From assembly GCA_903828635.1 (NCBI GenBank), contig CAIKMY010000257.1, forward strand, positions 1 to 33,057: DNA of 33,057 bases, written 5' to 3'. Positions 2-31,826 of this stretch are shown here, piece after piece. Each line of letters opens with the position of its first letter. Within the stretch, counting starts at the first letter, position 1. The position numbers and the translations under genes are program-made. The notes beneath the pieces were generated by a model that was not told where the DNA came from, made no database searches, and saw only the letters and a list, made by a program, of their open reading frames with translations. Source of the DNA: an uncultured Acidobacteriota bacterium. GTDB taxonomy: Bacteria > Acidobacteriota > Blastocatellia > RBC074.

Positions 2-679
2 GGCGAGTCGATCGTCGCGCAGAGGCTCTTCCTCTTTGGCCCACCAGCCCGGACGATCCTTGATCTTTCAACGGGTTACGATCTGACAGTGGTTGGTGCG
101 CATGATCGTTATGAATCAACCCTGCCGGGGCTTGGCCACATCGCGACGTGCATCGTCGAGCAATCGACCAATGCCACGCTGGTCGGCCGCGAGATCCCTC
201 CCGGTCGCGGTTTGCGCGTGCTGGCCTGCATTGACGGGTCGCTTGCCTCGCAGAACGCGCTTCGCTTCATGGCCAGCTCGCTGCAACTCGACTCCTCGGA
301 GGTGACGCTGCTCCATATCGCCGAGACTCCGTGGATCCATCCCGGTCCCGTTCCTGAGTGGACGGAATATCCCAGCCGCGAGTTTGAGGCCGCTGATCCC
401 GAGGGCCAGATCGACCGTGAGCTTCGACGTGAATCGTCCCACATCCTTGAAGTGGCGCGCCTCATGCTCGAATCATACGGGATTGCGGCTCAGGTGCTGG
501 CGAGCGAGGGTGACGCCGTCCTCGAAATCGTCTCCGAGTCTGAGTCGGGGGAGTACGATCTGATCGTTATCGGGGCCACCGGCGAAGAGGGATTGAGGGA
601 GGCGCTGACCGGTCACGCCTCGTCGCGCATTGCGGCTGTCGCTCCATGCTCGGTGCTCATTCCACGGTATGTCGCGTAA
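2..679 (+). CDS. Tandem-domain universal stress protein (5' end outside window)
   Basis: The reading frame is open from base 2, so the true start lies upstream of the window; the GTG at 89 is internal. Two universal stress protein (UspA-fold) domains are visible. The first is represented only by its last part, with the typical strand DLTVVGAHDR and the closing segment NATLVGRE. The second is complete, from about GLRVLACIDGS to the C-terminus, ending in the helix and strand VAPCSVLIPR. The second domain carries a nucleotide-binding-like loop GATGEEG with a later GHASS. It only approximates the G-x2-G-x9-G(S/T) motif, and the first domain lacks the loop, so ATP binding is uncertain. USPs are cytoplasmic proteins linked to stress survival; the partner or signal cannot be told here. 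The gene converges on the penicillin-binding protein gene, with a hairpin repeat between the two. Confidence 0.88.
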   Translation, partial: GESIVAQRLFLFGPPARTILDLSTGYDLTVVGAHDRYESTLPGLGHIATCIVEQSTNATLVGREIPPGRGLRVLACIDGSLASQNALRFMASSLQLDSSEVTLLHIAETPWIHPGPVPEWTEYPSREFEAADPEGQIDRELRRESSHILEVARLMLESYGIAAQVLASEGDAVLEIVSESESGEYDLIVIGATGEEGLREALTGHASSRIAAVAPCSVLIPRYVA

Positions 680-685
680 ATCGGG

Positions 686-756
686 GCACGCAACATCGGA
701 ACATTGCCCGCTGGAAGCATCACGAATCAGGGGGCATGTTCCGATGTCGGCTGTTT
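686..756 (+). repeat. Dispersed hairpin element, copy A
   Basis: The left arm (about 693-709) and right arm (about 732-747) are complementary over roughly 16 bases with one bulge (ACATCGGAACAT pairs with ATGTTCCGATGT), around a 22-base loop. The element lies between the convergent stress-protein and penicillin-binding protein genes and reaches to just short of the latter's stop. A second copy in inverted orientation lies at 13277-13347. The two share the loop segment CACGAATCAGG exactly and match at most arm positions. In this place it could act as a bidirectional transcript end, but there is no U-run, so that is inference. Confidence 0.7.
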
Positions 757-765
757 CTATTCATG

Positions 766-3699
<2,934 letters not shown>

Positions 3700-8410: not shown

Positions 8411-11176
8411 CTACCTGACGCTGATGGTTACCTCGTTGGAGCGGGTGACGCTGCCCTCACCATTGCGAACCTTGATGGTGATGGTCAGGGTACCGGAGGA
8501 GATGTTCGCCGGAAGCTCAACGTTGAACTGGTCAAGTCCGGAGAAACCAGGTGCCGGACCGGCATAGCCCACATTGAGCGTGGTGGTGCCGATGCTGGCG
8601 TCAACCAGTTCGGCGACTCCATTGGCCGGATTGCCATCGAGATCCTCGAGTCCGCGGAGACCGGTGCCGTAAAGCACAAGGAAGAGCCGGTCACCGCTCT
8701 GCCGGGTGATCGTTACCGGCAGGATCCTGCTGGTGGCGCTGTCGTAGCGGGCGAGCGGCTCGTAGCTGGTCTGGCCGCTGGCTTTGACACGCAGCAGCTG
8801 ACCGGCCGGGTTGCCCTTGCCGGAGCCATCAGCGGTGAAGAGGCTCGGCGCGGCGGCCGAGATCTCGATCGTCCCCTGGGCCACAGCCTGACCGTCACGC
8901 ATGACCGTGACCATTGCCGTTCCCGGCAGTACTTCATCCGGGACAAGGTAGTTGATCTGCGTCGGCGAGGCGAAGAAGAGTCCTGCCGCACGCCCGTCGA
9001 CCATCACTGAGACTCCGCCAAGAGTGGTTGGCAGCGGCTGGATATTGGCCGATGCCGTCGTCGTCGTCAGGTTGGAGCCAAAGGCGGCAATGATCGAGGA
9101 GGATGAATTTGATGTCAGGTAGCTGCCGGCATTGACCGAGGCCAGCGGCTGGAACTGCATGAATGTCGCACCGGTCGATCCGGCTTCAACCTCGATGAAC
9201 TTCGCGTCAACCTCACCACCGGGTAATTCGGCACCGACCACCTCGGCGAGTGCTCCAACCTCGATCCGGCTCCGCTGGCGATCGATCAGCGTCGAGCGGC
9301 TGACATTGACCTTGCGGCCATTGTCGAAGACCCACTGGCCGATGAAATTGGCCGTCTCCGGCAGATCGCTCACCCTGGCGATGAACTCGATGATGCTCAG
9401 ATCGTTGATGGGTGCTGTCACGGGTGGAGTCGGTCGTACTGAGATTGAGAGTGCCGTCACCACACCGTCGGCAAAGAGATATCCCTTGACCTCGACGAAG
9501 GCTCCAACCTTGATCTCGCCGCGCTGTGTCTCGGTCTTCGTCGCCTCATTGACGTTGACCTTGCGACTGTTTTTGCCGATCGTCCACTCACCCGGATACT
9601 TCCCGGCGACGGCGGCTGGCAGAGTTTTGATGTCACCATAAAAATTGATGAAGCCGATGGCTCCAGCCGGTGCGTCCTTATCGCGCTCGACCTGAATGGC
9701 GAAGGCGTCAACACCGCCATCGGTCCGCTGGTTACCCTCGACCTGAACATAGGCGCCAACCTGCGGAGTGCCGTGCTCACGGACGATGCGCGTCCGTGAA
9801 CTGACCGTCACCGGCCGTCCGCTGACGACCCACGTGCCAACGAGGGTGCTGCCGTTCGGCAGGGTCTCGATCGTGCCATAGAACCTGGTATAGCTGATTG
9901 ATCCACCGGTGCCGGCTCTGATTTCGATCTCCTTTGCGAGGATCGACCCGTCAGCCTGGATGATTCCCTCAACCTCGGCGATTGCACCAACTTTGGCACT
10001 GGCATTGCCCTGGTCAATCTTCGTCTCGGCAACGACCCTGACGGTGCGCTCGCCAACTTTCCAGGTGCCGATCAGGCTCGGAGTGCTTCCGCTGGTTGAC
10101 GTTGGTTCGATGCTCCTGATCTCACCAGCGAAACGCACGTACCCTGGTGTCGGCTCGGCGCCAATGACCGCGATCGAGGTCGCGATGACCGCACCCGTCT
10201 GGTCGGTTGTTCCCCGAACTTCGACCTGAGCACCAACCACCAGCTTGCTCTTGTCGCCATCGATCTTCGTCTCTGCCGAGACCTTGATCGTTCGGCCACT
10301 CACCTTCCAGTCACCAATGAAATTGCTGGTCGAGGGCAGCGTCTCGATCGTGCCGCGCAGCATTACCGGCAGTGTCGGAACCTGAATCTCGGCCTTGACC
10401 TCGATCCTTGTCGCGGCAAACTTGCCACCGGAGGTCAGGCTGCCGGTCACCTCAACCAGTGATCCGATCATGGCCTTCGCCCTCTGCTCATCAATCACCG
10501 TCTCGTTGGCAACCAGCACCGTGCGGCCGCTGATGACCCACTCTCCCGGCTTGATCGGGTTGGGCAGCTTTTCGACCTTGCCCACAATCCTGATCGTTGT
10601 CGGCGGCCCGAACTCCGGCAGGATGCCGACACTCAGCGCGGTGAGCGAATTGTCCTGCTCGATTCGCGCGATCACTGCGGCATTGGCACCGACTGCCGGG
10701 GCGCCAAGTTTCTGGTCGATCTTTGTCATGTCGTTGACATTGACGGTCCGGGTGCCGATCTTCCACGGGCCGATCCGGCCCGGTGTGCTCGGCAACTCCT
10801 CGATCCGTCCGACAAAGTTGAGCTGCGCGGCACTGACCGGCGCATACTTGATCTCAATTTTAGTGGCGTTGAAGACTCCACTTGACTGCCTTGTCCCACT
10901 GGCCTCGACCCAGGCCCCAACCTGGGGTTTGCCCTCGATCTTCGTCGAAGCGGTAACGCTGACCTTGACCTGTGCAATTGTCCACTCGCCGATCCATCCC
11001 TGGGTTGATGGCAGGCTGACGATCCCGCCGGCAATCTTTGACTCGGGGGCGCTGCCACTCTGAGCTGCGGCCCTCTCGCCCGGAGGGAATGTGGCCAGCG
11101 AGAGAATCATCACCACCACTGCCATCACGAGCGATCTCCGTCGTGCCGGAACCGATGCTGAAAGACTGTTATTCAT
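8411..11176 (-). CDS. Secreted protein with eight DUF5666-like repeats and a TIGR03437-type C-terminal domain
   Basis: 921 residues. A signal peptide (about 1-38, ending GERAAAQ) is followed by eight tandem repeats of about 75 residues. Each runs from a strand such as FVGRIEELP through GxWxI, a V-x-V-x-x-x-T-K-I-D core and VGAxVEVxG to a closing A-x-x-I-x-V strand. This is the DUF5666 pattern, probably a small beta-barrel (OB-like). The last 210 or so residues match the Solibacter-type C-terminal domain (TIGR03437-like): ...NAGSYL, IIAAFGSNL, FASPTQINYLVP, LVLYGTGLRG, GLDQFNVELP. The same kind of domain ends the metalloprotease at 22165-25380. The role is unknown; surface or secreted binding is a guess. 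AGAGG precedes the ATG closely. The 15-bp repeat array upstream may hold its promoters. Confidence 0.88.
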   Translation of the reverse strand: MNNSLSASVPARRRSLVMAVVVMILSLATFPPGERAAAQSGSAPESKIAGGIVSLPSTQGWIGEWTIAQVKVSVTASTKIEGKPQVGAWVEASGTRQSSGVFNATKIEIKYAPVSAAQLNFVGRIEELPSTPGRIGPWKIGTRTVNVNDMTKIDQKLGAPAVGANAAVIARIEQDNSLTALSVGILPEFGPPTTIRIVGKVEKLPNPIKPGEWVISGRTVLVANETVIDEQRAKAMIGSLVEVTGSLTSGGKFAATRIEVKAEIQVPTLPVMLRGTIETLPSTSNFIGDWKVSGRTIKVSAETKIDGDKSKLVVGAQVEVRGTTDQTGAVIATSIAVIGAEPTPGYVRFAGEIRSIEPTSTSGSTPSLIGTWKVGERTVRVVAETKIDQGNASAKVGAIAEVEGIIQADGSILAKEIEIRAGTGGSISYTRFYGTIETLPNGSTLVGTWVVSGRPVTVSSRTRIVREHGTPQVGAYVQVEGNQRTDGGVDAFAIQVERDKDAPAGAIGFINFYGDIKTLPAAVAGKYPGEWTIGKNSRKVNVNEATKTETQRGEIKVGAFVEVKGYLFADGVVTALSISVRPTPPVTAPINDLSIIEFIARVSDLPETANFIGQWVFDNGRKVNVSRSTLIDRQRSRIEVGALAEVVGAELPGGEVDAKFIEVEAGSTGATFMQFQPLASVNAGSYLTSNSSSSIIAAFGSNLTTTTASANIQPLPTTLGGVSVMVDGRAAGLFFASPTQINYLVPDEVLPGTAMVTVMRDGQAVAQGTIEISAAAPSLFTADGSGKGNPAGQLLRVKASGQTSYEPLARYDSATSRILPVTITRQSGDRLFLVLYGTGLRGLEDLDGNPANGVAELVDASIGTTTLNVGYAGPAPGFSGLDQFNVELPANISSGTLTITIKVRNGEGSVTRSNEVTISVR

Positions 11177-11212: not shown

Positions 11213-11287
11213 GCTGTCATTATTAAAGCTGTCATTATTAAAGCTGTCAGGATTAAAGCTGTCAGGATTAAAGCTGTCAGGATTCAA
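11213..11287 (-). repeat. 15-bp x5 tandem repeat with built-in promoter hexamers
   Basis: Five contiguous 15-base units. On the minus strand the consensus unit is TTTAATCCTGACAGC; the two units nearest the gene read AA instead of CC, and the first unit differs at its third base. CTGACA of units 1, 2 and 3 lies exactly 17 bases before TTTAAT of units 3, 4 and 5, giving three overlapping -35/-10-like pairs that point at the DUF5666-repeat gene, whose start is 37 bases past the array. TTTAAT lacks the conserved second A of a -10 box, so strength is uncertain. On the plus strand the array could be translated, but nothing supports coding there. Confidence 0.75.
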
Positions 11288-11550: not shown

Positions 11551-13377
11551 TCATCCGCTCTTCAGGACCATGCCATTCACCGTCTCATTCGGGCCATGGC
11601 CTGTCAGGGGATCGCCGTGGCAAACAACAGAACCATTGATGATCACAGTGATGATTCCGGTTGCCTCGCGGCGGGGATGGCGGAAAGATGCCCGGTCGCG
11701 GAGTTTGTCGGGATTGCAGAGAACGAGATCGGCAAAGGCACCCGGACGGATGACACCGCGGTCGGCGATGCCGAAGAGTGTTGCCGGGTAGAGGGTCATG
11801 CGATGAACCGCGGTCTCGAGTGAGAGACGGGGCGGGGAACCAGTGAATTTCGAGAGGATACGTGGGAAGGCGCCATAAGCAGCGGGGTGAGGCAGTCCGC
11901 GGCCGTAGTCCTCGGCATCGGTGCAAAAAGCGCAAAATGGATGGCGGGCGAGGCGATCAAGCCAACGTCGCTGGCGACGTCCGCCGGAGATCTCAAAGAT
12001 GATCATCGAGACCTCGCCCTTCTCCTCGATCAGAAGATCAGAGATGGCGTCAAACGGGCTTTTGCCAATGAGCGCACCTAGTCGGGCGAGGCTCAGACCC
12101 TCATACTGACGATGGCGGCGACTGCCAACCCGCCCGATGGTGATCGCCTCCCAGCCGGTGGCAGCAACCAGATTGTGAGGCCAGCCGCCATCGAGCCACG
12201 GGGGCCAGCCCAACTCGTCGGGGCGCGGAAGCTCGATCTCCCGCTCGATACGGCGGCGCAGATCGGGATCACGCAGCCTCTCCAGCAGTGAGGTAACTCC
12301 TCCCTCGAGCGCCCATGGCGGGTAGATGGCAATCATCATGGTTGCCGCGCCGGTGTACGGGAAGATGTCGAAGCTGAGGCGGATCCCCTCGCCGCGTGCC
12401 TCGTCCTCGAGGGCGAGAACCTCGTCGATCTTCGGCCAGTGTGCGCGGCCAACCGCCTCGCTGTGGGAATGGTGCAGCCTGACACCGGTGGCACGGCCGA
12501 TCTCGATCAGCTCTTTGACGGCCGGCAGCAGCAGCTCGCTCGAACCGCGGATATGGCTGGTGCAGATCCCGTCGTGCGCCGCAACCACCCGGGCGAGTTC
12601 GATCAGCTCGTCGGTTGCCGAGTAGATCCCCGGTGGATAGATCAGCCCGGTTGAGAGGCCAAAGGCACCATCGTCGAGTCCTCGCTCGACGGCCGCGCGC
12701 ATCTGTCGCAACTCTCCCGCATTCGGGATTCCTCTCGCCAACCCCATCGCCCCGATTCTGATGGCTCCTTGCGGGATCAATGTCCCGACATTGAGCAGCA
12801 CACCATTGTCACGCAGACGTGCAAGGTAGTCGCCGATACTGCGCCACCTCCACTCAATCGACTCGGGGGTCATCCAGCCGGCAATCCCACGCATCTGTGC
12901 CTCGGCCTCGATGCTGGCCACTGGCGCACAGCCAAGCCCGCAGTTGCCGATGATCGTCGTCGTGATCCCCTGAGTCAGCTTGCCGCGCAGCAATTTCGCC
13001 TGCCGTGCCGGAGGGAGTGGAAAGATGAGATCCGCGTGTGAATGGGGATCGATCAGCCCCGGCAGCAGCGTCAGCCCGCGCCCGTCAATTTCACCTCCGG
13101 CCTCTCCAGCCATTTTACCAGCAGCCTCAGTAACCTCAGCAGCCTCAGTAACCGAAGAGACCCAGGCAATCCGATCGCCGCTGATGCCGACGTCGGCGAT
13201 CCGCGCCGGTGCTCCCGTGCCGTCAATCAGCCGTGCGCCGCGAATGACCAGATCCAAACGGACAGAGCCAACATCAGAACAGACAACATTGGAAATCGTT
13301 CCTGATTCGTGGCGATTCCGGCGGGTCGTGTCCCGATGTTGTGTGTTTCGATGGCGGCTCTGTCTGTTCAGCCTCAT
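11551..13377 (-). CDS. Amidohydrolase of the N-acyl-D-amino-acid deacylase (D-aminoacylase) family
   Basis: Metal-dependent TIM-barrel hydrolase (amidohydrolase_3). Counting from the ATG at 13377 (608 residues): the N-terminal beta-sandwich starts at about 41 (LDLVIRGARLIDG), the metal motif HSHAD is at 112-116, a likely metal-bridging Cys is in GNCGLG (146), SHIRG holds His275, HHSH is at 302-305, and CTDAEDYG later supplies the catalytic aspartate. It closes with the sandwich FADLVLCNPDKL. These enzymes release D-amino acids from N-acyl forms; the substrate here is unproven. The ATG overlaps the stop of the CRTAC1 gene (ATGA), which suggests coupling. However, the first 40 residues are translated from a hairpin repeat and look unlike the family. 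A TTG at 13257 would give a 568-residue protein of normal family length. An in-frame 18-bp duplication gives VTEAAEVTEAA. Confidence 0.82.
   Translation of the reverse strand: MRLNRQSRHRNTQHRDTTRRNRHESGTISNVVCSDVGSVRLDLVIRGARLIDGTGAPARIADVGISGDRIAWVSSVTEAAEVTEAAGKMAGEAGGEIDGRGLTLLPGLIDPHSHADLIFPLPPARQAKLLRGKLTQGITTTIIGNCGLGCAPVASIEAEAQMRGIAGWMTPESIEWRWRSIGDYLARLRDNGVLLNVGTLIPQGAIRIGAMGLARGIPNAGELRQMRAAVERGLDDGAFGLSTGLIYPPGIYSATDELIELARVVAAHDGICTSHIRGSSELLLPAVKELIEIGRATGVRLHHSHSEAVGRAHWPKIDEVLALEDEARGEGIRLSFDIFPYTGAATMMIAIYPPWALEGGVTSLLERLRDPDLRRRIEREIELPRPDELGWPPWLDGGWPHNLVAATGWEAITIGRVGSRRHRQYEGLSLARLGALIGKSPFDAISDLLIEEKGEVSMIIFEISGGRRQRRWLDRLARHPFCAFCTDAEDYGRGLPHPAAYGAFPRILSKFTGSPPRLSLETAVHRMTLYPATLFGIADRGVIRPGAFADLVLCNPDKLRDRASFRHPRREATGIITVIINGSVVCHGDPLTGHGPNETVNGMVLKSG
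13119..13154. repeat. 18-bp in-frame tandem duplication inside the amidohydrolase gene
   Basis: Two adjacent 18-base units (13119-13136 and 13137-13154) differ at one base. They keep the reading frame and double a short Val-Thr-Glu-Ala-Ala segment in a surface loop of the N-terminal beta-sandwich. Confidence 0.8.
13261..13364 (-). repeat. Dispersed hairpin element, copy B
   Basis: The outer arms GACAGAGCC (13261-13269) and GGCTCTGTC (13356-13364) are perfectly complementary. Pairing continues inward with about 30 matches in 38 positions, around a loop of about 28 bases. The inner part (13277-13347), read on the minus strand, aligns with copy A at 686-756, including ACAACATCGG-like arms, CCCGCYGGAA and CACGAATCAGG in the loop. 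It lies right behind the stop of the CRTAC1 gene and is read through in frame by the amidohydrolase gene if that starts at 13377. Confidence 0.75.
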
Positions 13378-15236
13378 TTGCCGGAGGGTGTCGCCGGGGC
13401 AGGGGAGGGAGAAACCATCGGGTAGAGGCGCGTCTCGGCGACACCGCTGCCCTCCTTCAGGACATAATGGCGATTGGCGACGAGGCTGCCCAGCTTCTCG
13501 ACCTTGCCGTTTGGCCATTCGACCTCGACACGTTCGGCACGGTCGTTCCGTCCCAATCCGAAGGTCAGCGGCAGCTCGCTCTGCGAGCAATAGCTCGATC
13601 CGCTGTGCACTTGCTGCCAGAGGCGGCTTCCATCAGGCAACACCATCGTTACTCGCGCCCCGATCCCGCTCGTGTTGGAGACGACCCCGGTCGCCTCGAT
13701 CCGCAGAAAGCGGTTCTGGTTGCCGCCATCGTTGCGCAGCAGCGACGCCGGCCCGCCATTGGTCGTCACGAGGATGTCGAGGTCTCCGTCGTTGTCATAA
13801 TCACCGTAGGCGGCACCGCGGCCGACGATCGCTCGCTGAAAAGGCCTGCCGGAACGCTTCGTTACTTCGGCAAAACGCTTGCGGCCTTCGTTGCGGAAGA
13901 GCTTCGGTGCCATTGCATAAGTGATCTTCGGTTGTACTTTGTTGATATCGTCGGCGACGTGGCCGTTGGCGAGGAAGATATCCGATCGTCCGTCGAGGTC
14001 GTAATCAAAGAAGAACAGACCGAAGGTCAGCGTCAGCAGCGTTGCCTGGCCAAGCGTCGAGGCGGGTGCCTCGTCGATGAAGAGGCCCGATTTACCCTCA
14101 TTGTGGTAAAAACCAAGCATCTCGTTTGAGAAATTGCCGATGATCAGGCTCGGATAACCGGAGCCATCGTAGTCGGAGAAATCGACTCCCATCCCGGCGC
14201 GTGCCTTGCCTTCCTCGCTGAAGGCGACACCGGCGGTGGTGGCCACCTCGGTGAAGCCACCCTTGCCATTGTTCTGGTAGAGCTTGTTCGGCTGGGTATC
14301 ATTGGCGACGAAGATGTCGATCAACCCGTCGCGGTTGTAATCGAAGGTTGCCACGCCGAGTGACTTGCTGGTCGGATCGGCAATGCCCGCGGCCACGCTG
14401 ACATCTTCAAATCGCCCACCGAGGTTGTGCCAGAGGCGTGCGCTCTGCCCCTTGTAACTCTCCGGTGTGCAGTAGCTTTTGCCGGTCCCGTCGAGTGAGC
14501 AGAAGAGATCGCCGGCAATCGTCCAGTCGACGTAGTTGCCGACAAAGAGGTCAAGCCGGCCGTCACGGTCGTAATCGAGCCACGCAGCACTGGTCGAGAA
14601 GGCGGGTGGCCCCGTCAGGCCGGCTTTCGCCGTGACATCAGCGAAACGCCCGTCACCGCCATTCCGGAAGAGCCGACTCTGGCCGAGCGCACTGACGAAG
14701 ATGTCGTCCCATCCGTCATTGTCGTAGTCACCGACGGCGACCCCCATCCCATACATCGGCTTCGCCAGCCCGGCAGCAACCGTCACATCACTGAATGATC
14801 CATTGCGATTGTTGCGGTAAAGAGCCATTACCGACCGCCGCTTCCGTGGCGCATCCTCGAAGTCCATCGCGTTGATCAGCAGCAGATCCTGCCAGCCGTC
14901 ATTGTCGAAATCGAGGAAGGCACAGCCGGAGCCGGTCGTCTCCGGGAGGTACTTTTTCCCATAGGCGCCATTGTTGTGGCGAAACCTGATGCCGGCACTT
15001 GCGGTGGCATCACTGTATTCGACCGGCACGATCTGCTCGGGGTAGGGGGGCAGCTTGTCACTCGGAACCCCGGCTGACTCGCCTGGCCCGGTTGCCCCGG
15101 CCTCAGTCGTCTCAGGTGTTGGCGTTGGTGACGATGTCACCTGCGGCCCCTCCGAGCGGCGACAGGCGGTCGAGAGCAGCACGGCGAGGAGAAATGTCAG
15201 AAGATATCTGGATCTCATAGGTGATCTCATTGTCAC
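13374..15236 (-). CDS. CRTAC1-family lipoprotein with FG-GAP/VCBS repeats and ASPIC/UnbV domain
   Basis: 620 residues. The signal peptide ends in a lipobox (LLSTAC, Cys25), so the protein is probably lipid-anchored and exported. The body (about 75-510) holds seven FG-GAP/VCBS-type repeats with calcium-binding-like loops: DFDNDGWQD, DYDNDGWDD, DYDRDGRLD, DYNRDGLID, DYDGSGYPS, DYDLDGRSD and DYDNDGDLD. This predicts a beta-propeller. The C-terminal part (about 515-605) is an ASPIC/UnbV domain (SGIGARVTMVLPDG, SGSSYCSQSELPLTFGLG, VEVEWPNGK). The function of such proteins is unsettled; binding of polysaccharide or protein partners outside the cell is likely. It starts 22 bases after the cytochrome/TPR gene and overlaps the amidohydrolase start, so all three look co-transcribed. 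A near 12-bp duplication at 15211-15234 repeats the start codon region, so three ATGs (15236, 15230, 15218) compete. Confidence 0.9.
   Translation of the reverse strand: MTMRSPMRSRYLLTFLLAVLLSTACRRSEGPQVTSSPTPTPETTEAGATGPGESAGVPSDKLPPYPEQIVPVEYSDATASAGIRFRHNNGAYGKKYLPETTGSGCAFLDFDNDGWQDLLLINAMDFEDAPRKRRSVMALYRNNRNGSFSDVTVAAGLAKPMYGMGVAVGDYDNDGWDDIFVSALGQSRLFRNGGDGRFADVTAKAGLTGPPAFSTSAAWLDYDRDGRLDLFVGNYVDWTIAGDLFCSLDGTGKSYCTPESYKGQSARLWHNLGGRFEDVSVAAGIADPTSKSLGVATFDYNRDGLIDIFVANDTQPNKLYQNNGKGGFTEVATTAGVAFSEEGKARAGMGVDFSDYDGSGYPSLIIGNFSNEMLGFYHNEGKSGLFIDEAPASTLGQATLLTLTFGLFFFDYDLDGRSDIFLANGHVADDINKVQPKITYAMAPKLFRNEGRKRFAEVTKRSGRPFQRAIVGRGAAYGDYDNDGDLDILVTTNGGPASLLRNDGGNQNRFLRIEATGVVSNTSGIGARVTMVLPDGSRLWQQVHSGSSYCSQSELPLTFGLGRNDRAERVEVEWPNGKVEKLGSLVANRHYVLKEGSGVAETRLYPMVSPSPAPATPSGK
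15211..15234. repeat. 12-bp tandem duplication over the CRTAC1 gene start
   Basis: Two adjacent units beginning GATCTCAT (plus strand) cover the first codons of the lipoprotein gene. On the coding strand they repeat ATGAGATC, creating alternative start codons in the same frame. Confidence 0.55.
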
Positions 15237-25380: not shown

Positions 25381-25390
25381 AGGTGTCAAC

Positions 25391-25429
25391 TGGATACTCG
25401 GTCTGGATACCCGGTCTTGATACCCGGCG
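25391..25429. repeat. 13-bp x3 tandem repeat after the metalloprotease gene
   Basis: Units TGGATACTCGGTC, TGGATACCCGGTC and TTGATACCCGGCG are adjacent, starting 11 bases after the stop codon. No terminator hairpin accompanies them. Confidence 0.75.
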
Positions 25430-29579: not shown

Positions 29580-29597
29580 TATTGATCTTTCGATGAC

Positions 29598-29660
29598 ATT
29601 GATAACAAACATTGATAACAAACATTGATAACAAACATTGATAACAAACATTGGTAACAA
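29598..29660 (+). repeat. 13-bp x5 tandem repeat upstream of the S9 peptidase gene
   Basis: Four perfect units ATTGATAACAAAC (29598-29649) are followed by a partial fifth with one change (ATTGGTAACAA). The array ends 13 bases before the start codon and 3 bases before the Shine-Dalgarno GAGGGG. It is very AT-rich in an otherwise GC-rich genome, so it would keep the ribosome-binding region unstructured. It is not iteron DNA: no replication gene is near. Confidence 0.92.
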
Positions 29661-31788: not shown

Positions 31789-31826
31789 ATCGCCCGGAAA
31801 TCGCCCGGAAATCGCCCGGAAATCGC
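31789..31826. repeat. 11-bp tandem repeat (3.5 copies) upstream of the FeoB-like gene
   Basis: Three perfect units ATCGCCCGGAA followed by ATCGC, ending 24 bases before the start codon of the FeoB-like gene. It fills the middle of the 104-base gap behind the S9 peptidase gene. Confidence 0.9.

Follow-up and report, generated by a model that had tools for sequence, protein, structure and literature searches.

The analyzed window, a stretch of 33,057 nucleotides, carries two related palindromic elements. The first, copy A (676–764, plus strand), is situated between two convergent genes, namely a universal stress protein (Usp) gene (89–679, plus strand; Pfam PF00582) and a penicillin-binding protein gene (766–3699, minus strand; PF00912 and PF00905) whose end lies 1 nt past the element's right tip. 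With 89 bp, copy A has lost one right-arm 15-nt unit; the match to the covariance model described below spans model positions 1–103 (55.8 bits). Its fold places the stem arms at approximately 692–708 and 733–748, enclosing the conserved loop motif CACGAATCAGG at 721–731, and its right outer 15-nt unit, GTCGGCTGTTTCTAT, is found as an exact match at 746–760 (all plus strand). As judged from the sequence and the gene context, the TAA in the left tip (677–679, plus strand) is where translation of the Usp gene stops.

The second element, copy B (13254–13371, minus strand), gives one model match per strand (92.3 and 51.1 bits) and comprises a 103-nt core (13254–13356) and an extra left outer unit that extends it to 13371, with the loop motif CACGAATCAGG conserved at 13301–13311 (minus strand). 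An FG-GAP/UnbV (ASPIC) protein gene (13374–15236, minus strand; Pfam) ends just before copy B, and the reading frame of an amidohydrolase gene (11551–13257, minus strand; PF07969) resumes at its right tip, where a TTG is the likely start codon. The amidohydrolase of the genus-mate starts with ATG and has no element there; in our genome, the ATG has been displaced by copy B and the frame now seems to begin at the TTG of the tip. The original prediction had described two alike hairpins that fold back on themselves and share a loop motif, and this is confirmed by an alignment over about 70 bases and by the presence of CACGAATCAGG in both copies and at no third place in the window. The hairpins thus stood, while the boundaries assigned to them (686–756 and 13277–13347) proved too narrow. 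Both copies are diverged, in line with the claim that they are old and differ by compensating and noncompensating changes.

A typical copy is 103 bp long (family consensus, CTAAATCGGAACAGGCAACATTGGGACACTGCMCGCTGGAATCGYCRCGAATCAGGGACGTGTTCCAATGTTGCCTGTTCCGATGTCGGCTGTTTCTATTTAG) and has ends of the form CTAAATMGRAACAG...CTGTTYCKATTTAG. Its terminal inverted repeats consist of the tips, CTRA...TYAG or, with the adjoining bases, (C)TRAAT...ATTYA(G), and a 25-bp stem, which together enclose a loop of about 30 nt containing CGAATCAGG. The arms are built as a series of 15-nt units akin to GTYGSCTGTTYCKAT, the right outer unit of the consensus also being 15 nt long, and whole units have been gained and lost between copies, so that unit number varies; copy L143 on contig C392, for instance, carries several units on one side and is counted among the tandem-array sites. 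At C249 (831–980), C185 (27357–27500), C126 (L148), and the ends of C56 (L147) and C250 (L304), the outer unit has grown into tandem arrays of 14–18-nt repeats. Several contigs break at such arrays. At the short end of the range stands a remnant of 23 bp (CTGAATCGGCTGTTTCTATTCAG; L114). The element is short, dispersed, and devoid of coding capacity; of the three reading frames, one meets a TAA or TGA in the tips, and the consensus is open throughout in the other two. The true ends and the 15-nt units, as well as the two subfamilies and the probable stop-codon insertion discussed below, were absent from the original account.

The element is a mobile palindromic DNA repeat of roughly 100 bases from an uncultured acidobacterial genus, and it has so far been neither described nor catalogued. 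In the genome to which the window belongs (G000, a 92% complete draft of 4.3 Mb in 482 contigs), a covariance model based on an alignment of 21 copies yielded 144 matches on both strands, merging to about 95 distinct places, and a BLAST search with copy A as the query returned 46 matches. The notion of a family with many genomic copies is thereby borne out, and that of no further copies clearly fails. G000 contains 23 instances of the loop motif CACGAATCAGG and none of its reversed control, about eight of the 23 being chance matches that lack the remainder of the element. Because at least five contigs (C243, C324, C54, C250, and C56) terminate within the element or an array of it, these figures probably underestimate the number of copies. 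The genus-mate (G001; LaPlata_bin-2064, Acidobacteriota) contains the element at about 20 distinct places, and no convincing copies were found beyond these two genomes in the 36 other relatives searched or the 85,000 species genomes scanned. Among the 36 relatives, 33 gave no match to the model, and the weak matches in three genomes from other genera of the same family (G002, G005, and G006; E values of 1e-3 to 6e-5) were taken as chance hairpins. The scan of the 85,000 species genomes, which used an exact 21-base pattern fitting young copies only, on a set from which our genome is possibly absent, retrieved G001, one chance match, and nothing else. The Pseudomonas match and matches of the loop motif in viral contigs were discarded as chance, the remainder of the element being missing in both cases. 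No Rfam model matched the element at the gathering score, the sole Rfam match of the window being a tRNA, consistent with the initial failure to recognize a known family.

A comparison with the genus-mate revealed that none of 19 tested orthologous sites is common to both genomes. This only close genome is about 70% identical, too distant for the junctions of empty sites to be resolved at single-base level. The orthologs of 14 genes whose ends coincide exactly with an element tip were located in G001, on contigs with no element match, and G001 is also empty at five more pairs of neighboring genes, the one flanking copy B among them. Such insertion polymorphism indicates that the element is mobile. 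The empty sites expected in relatives were therefore found and, together with the dispersed short copies and the inverted ends, they substantiate the MITE-like form that had been proposed.

Among 56 ungapped copies, two subfamilies with intermediates were distinguished. The 19 copies of the young subfamily (S1) have a median identity of 95% to their own consensus, and the 20 copies of the older subfamily (S2) one of about 85%. S2 is marked by a double change from G14–C75 to C14–G75, which keeps the pairing. All 12 ungapped G001 copies carry G14–C75, and the G001 consensus is exactly that of S1. Because these consensus sequences are identical, while genes of the two genomes share only about 70% DNA identity, separate amplification in the two lineages is the most likely history. 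Across the stems, 84.0% of the cells are paired vs. 82.2% in shuffles, so that the anticipated excess of paired substitutions is present weakly and includes a single clear double change, the one marking S2, whereas most arm differences are one-sided. This slight excess and the one-sided changes are more readily accounted for by DNA copies in decay than by an RNA structure that is being maintained.

The tips of the 17 youngest copies provide hints toward the target sequence. Their outermost C and G are invariant, and the inner dinucleotides deviate from the consensus in 7 and 8 of the copies, as compared with 5.6% per site in the interior. Because the tip dinucleotides vary far above the interior, the outer three bases on each side appear to be derived from the target, and the pattern suggests a target of the general form C-YR-G with CTAG as the commonest version. 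The arrangement C-TA...TA-G is found in 8 of these 17 copies, and most commonly both junctions carry TA. As TA is palindromic, a 2-bp direct duplication is indistinguishable from an inverted tip in TA/TA copies; tips of the CTG...CAG type are at odds with a simple direct duplication, and at the copies no direct duplication of more than 2 bp exceeded expectation. A strong depletion of the tetranucleotide CTAG was seen in the G000 stretches (17 observed vs. 228 expected in 391 kb) and less so in those of G001 (113 observed vs. 525 expected in 736 kb). Consumption by the element cannot explain all of this depletion. Among the 113 CTAG sites of G001, 12 coincide with the stop of a long frame and 47 are located outside long coding frames; on these two counts, about 20% of copies would be expected at stop codons if CTAG is the target and coding hits are selected against.

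In G000, a called gene ends exactly in the tip for 21 of 80 copies examined (26%), with genes called by a simple codon-usage ORF caller. A plain stop count per offset is inflated by the stop that every tip provides, and the three reading frames were compared instead. In G000, 22 frames of at least 200 codons reach the TRA tip in the stopping frame vs. 1 and 3 in the other two, and at a threshold of at least 100 codons the counts are 31, 4, and 5. G001 displayed the same bias (5, 0, and 0 for at least 200 codons; 9, 1, and 0 for at least 100 codons). Where the G000 tip reads TAA, the G001 ortholog stops with TAG in seven of nine cases, a pattern that is only suggestive, given the small numbers and the fast turnover of stop codons at such a distance; where the tip reads TGA, the G001 stop is TGA (three cases) or TAA (two). 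These few correspondences suit an insertion between bases two and three of the stop codon, in which the element's own A would complete the new stop. Copy A, whose TAA at 677–679 ends the Usp gene, looks like a case of insertion at the native stop codon. At two further sites, L168 (C125:388–490) and L177 (C71:5119–5222), the element exactly fills the gap between convergent genes, each tip holding the stop of one gene.

Frames that end in the tip could also arise with no stop targeting, if the element inserted anywhere near gene ends and the survivors were those copies whose tip closes the frame immediately. An insertion in either of the remaining frames, which are open across the consensus, would add about 34 residues, and the scarcity of such cases is what selective survival would produce. 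However, it also predicts shorter or longer proteins, whereas the protein end coincides with that of the element-free ortholog at the same residue in 10 of the 14 genes and within about 3 residues in the other four, as compared with an exact match in 12 of 32 ordinary gene pairs. In two TonB/Oar-type receptors, moreover, the C-terminal phenylalanine is kept directly before the tip. We therefore regard survival without targeting as quite improbable. Because protein lengths match the ortholog instead of varying, insertion at the native stop codon is most likely, and the element would most likely supply a replacement stop from its tip, often at the stop codon of the host gene, and leave the protein unchanged. 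The strong stem and the frequent position directly 3′ of a stop codon might alternatively point to a functional RNA hairpin, either a transcription terminator or an mRNA-stabilizing element kept by selection at gene ends, and the genus-mate gap orthologous to L177 indeed holds a terminator-like hairpin, unrelated to the element. Against this, gene orientation around the copies looks random and convergent pairs are not enriched (47 same-strand, 10 convergent, and 15 divergent), making a general terminator role unlikely; no T-run terminator was called at copy A, the pairing in the stems barely exceeds that of shuffles with most arm changes one-sided, and no site is common to both genomes. The chance that the family is a selected RNA hairpin thus appears very slim.

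The identity of the mover was addressed by searching three transposase families in the 92% complete draft, where neither an autonomous relative nor a transposase with matching ends was found. The IS630-type DDE_3 transposase (PF13358) had no match in G000, and the Y1 (RAYT) transposase (PF01797) had none in G000 and one partial match in G001. Matches to DDE_Tnp_1 occurred on only two contigs of G000, neither of which showed a matching pair of ends; on one of them, C192, a single half-end lies about 1 kb downstream of the transposase gene and the contig is truncated on the opposite side, so that no such pair could be demonstrated. Since insertion sequences are often lost from draft assemblies, the absence of a transposase is weak evidence. 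Transfer of a REP- or TIR-type element via single-stranded DNA, the route proposed for RAYTs and the acidobacterial TIRYTs, in which a Y1 (HUH) tyrosine transposase would recognize the hairpin and the foot tetranucleotide would act as the cleavage or target site, could draw on the strong hairpin with its conserved loop and on the Y1 transposases present in most related genomes, including the partial match in the genus-mate. Nevertheless, the family is largest in a genome whose draft yielded no Y1 transposase, and both ends of the element behave alike, in contrast to the asymmetric ends of IS200/IS605-type elements. REP sequences are palindromes of 20–40 bp with a GTAG or CGTC tag, and TIR repeats associated with tyrosine transposases (TIRYTs) have been described in Acidobacteria, with TIR families in Koribacter (PMC3733652). 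The element resembles both as a high-copy intergenic palindrome; by analogy, a Y1 route through TIRYT-like repeats is possible. At 103 bp, however, it is about three times as long as a REP, has CTRA...TYAG tips with no GTAG-type tag, and resides in a genome in which no Y1 transposase was found, so that the supposed kinship with REP sequences was not sustained and Y1-driven spread is, in our estimation, unlikely.

Taken together, the mobile palindrome is probably a nonautonomous, MITE-like element of a single acidobacterial genus. It would be moved in trans into a short CTAG/CYRG-like target, and such targets frequently overlap with stop codons. The target, most often CTAG and more generally C-YR-G, would be opened around the dinucleotide at its center, with C-TA|AAT...ATT|TA-G as the result. 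As CTAG is rare in coding sequence yet present where a TAG stop follows a C, the element would frequently land in a stop codon, where the A at its own end would complete a new stop, turning TAG into TAA and leaving TGA as TGA; host protein length would be kept and the insertion thus tolerated. The best fit to a CTAG target would be a cut-and-paste DDE transposase of the IS630/Tc1-mariner type, which we propose tentatively, by analogy, as the mover. IS630 is listed as preferring TA within CTAG (Tenzen and Ohtsubo 1991, as listed in PMC2170065). IS630/Tc1-mariner elements and their MITEs share with the acidobacterial element the terminal inverted repeats, the TA that its commonest form has at each junction, the CTAG context, and intergenic copies; the differences are that the genome has no IS630-type transposase, that other tip dinucleotides are frequent, and that the element is almost fully palindromic and built of 15-nt units. 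A more far-reaching version, somewhat doubtful in our view, holds that the palindrome is adapted to stop codons, inserting between the second and third bases of TAG or TGA with both ends able to rebuild a stop, so that gene ends could be colonized from either strand without a change in protein. A short target that overlaps stop codons, combined with stop-restoring ends, would allow a mobile element to settle harmlessly at the ends of genes.

Other repeats bear partial resemblance to the element. MITEPsy1 of Pseudomonas syringae, an IS5-like element of 100 nt that targets CTAG or YTAA (PMC3189936), is of the same length class, has a similar CTAG-like target, and likewise lacks coding capacity, but it has IS5-like ends and duplicates 4 nt directly, whereas the four outer bases of the acidobacterial element are inverted (CTAA...TTAG). 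A 4-bp duplication of the IS5 type was rejected on these grounds, the left CTAA and right TTAG being inverted rather than direct. The ERIC/RU-type repeats of enterobacteria (RU-1, 127 bp; RU-3, 103 bp; PMC2759123) are similar in size and palindromic form and have also been proposed to be MITEs with no known mover; they occur in other hosts and are likened here by description. Integron attC sites, whose cores read RYYYAAC/GTTRRRY, were dismissed, as the tips of the acidobacterial element lack such cores and its copies are scattered on both strands. The window further contains unrelated short tandem repeats at 11213–11284, 29596–29660, 31789–31826, and 25390–25427, with units of 15, 13, 11, and 13 nt, respectively (for example, GCTGTCAGGATTAAA repeated 4.8 times and ACATTGATAACAA repeated five times), and a gene at 8411–11176 (minus strand) encoding a 921-aa protein with six stretches that match DUF5666.
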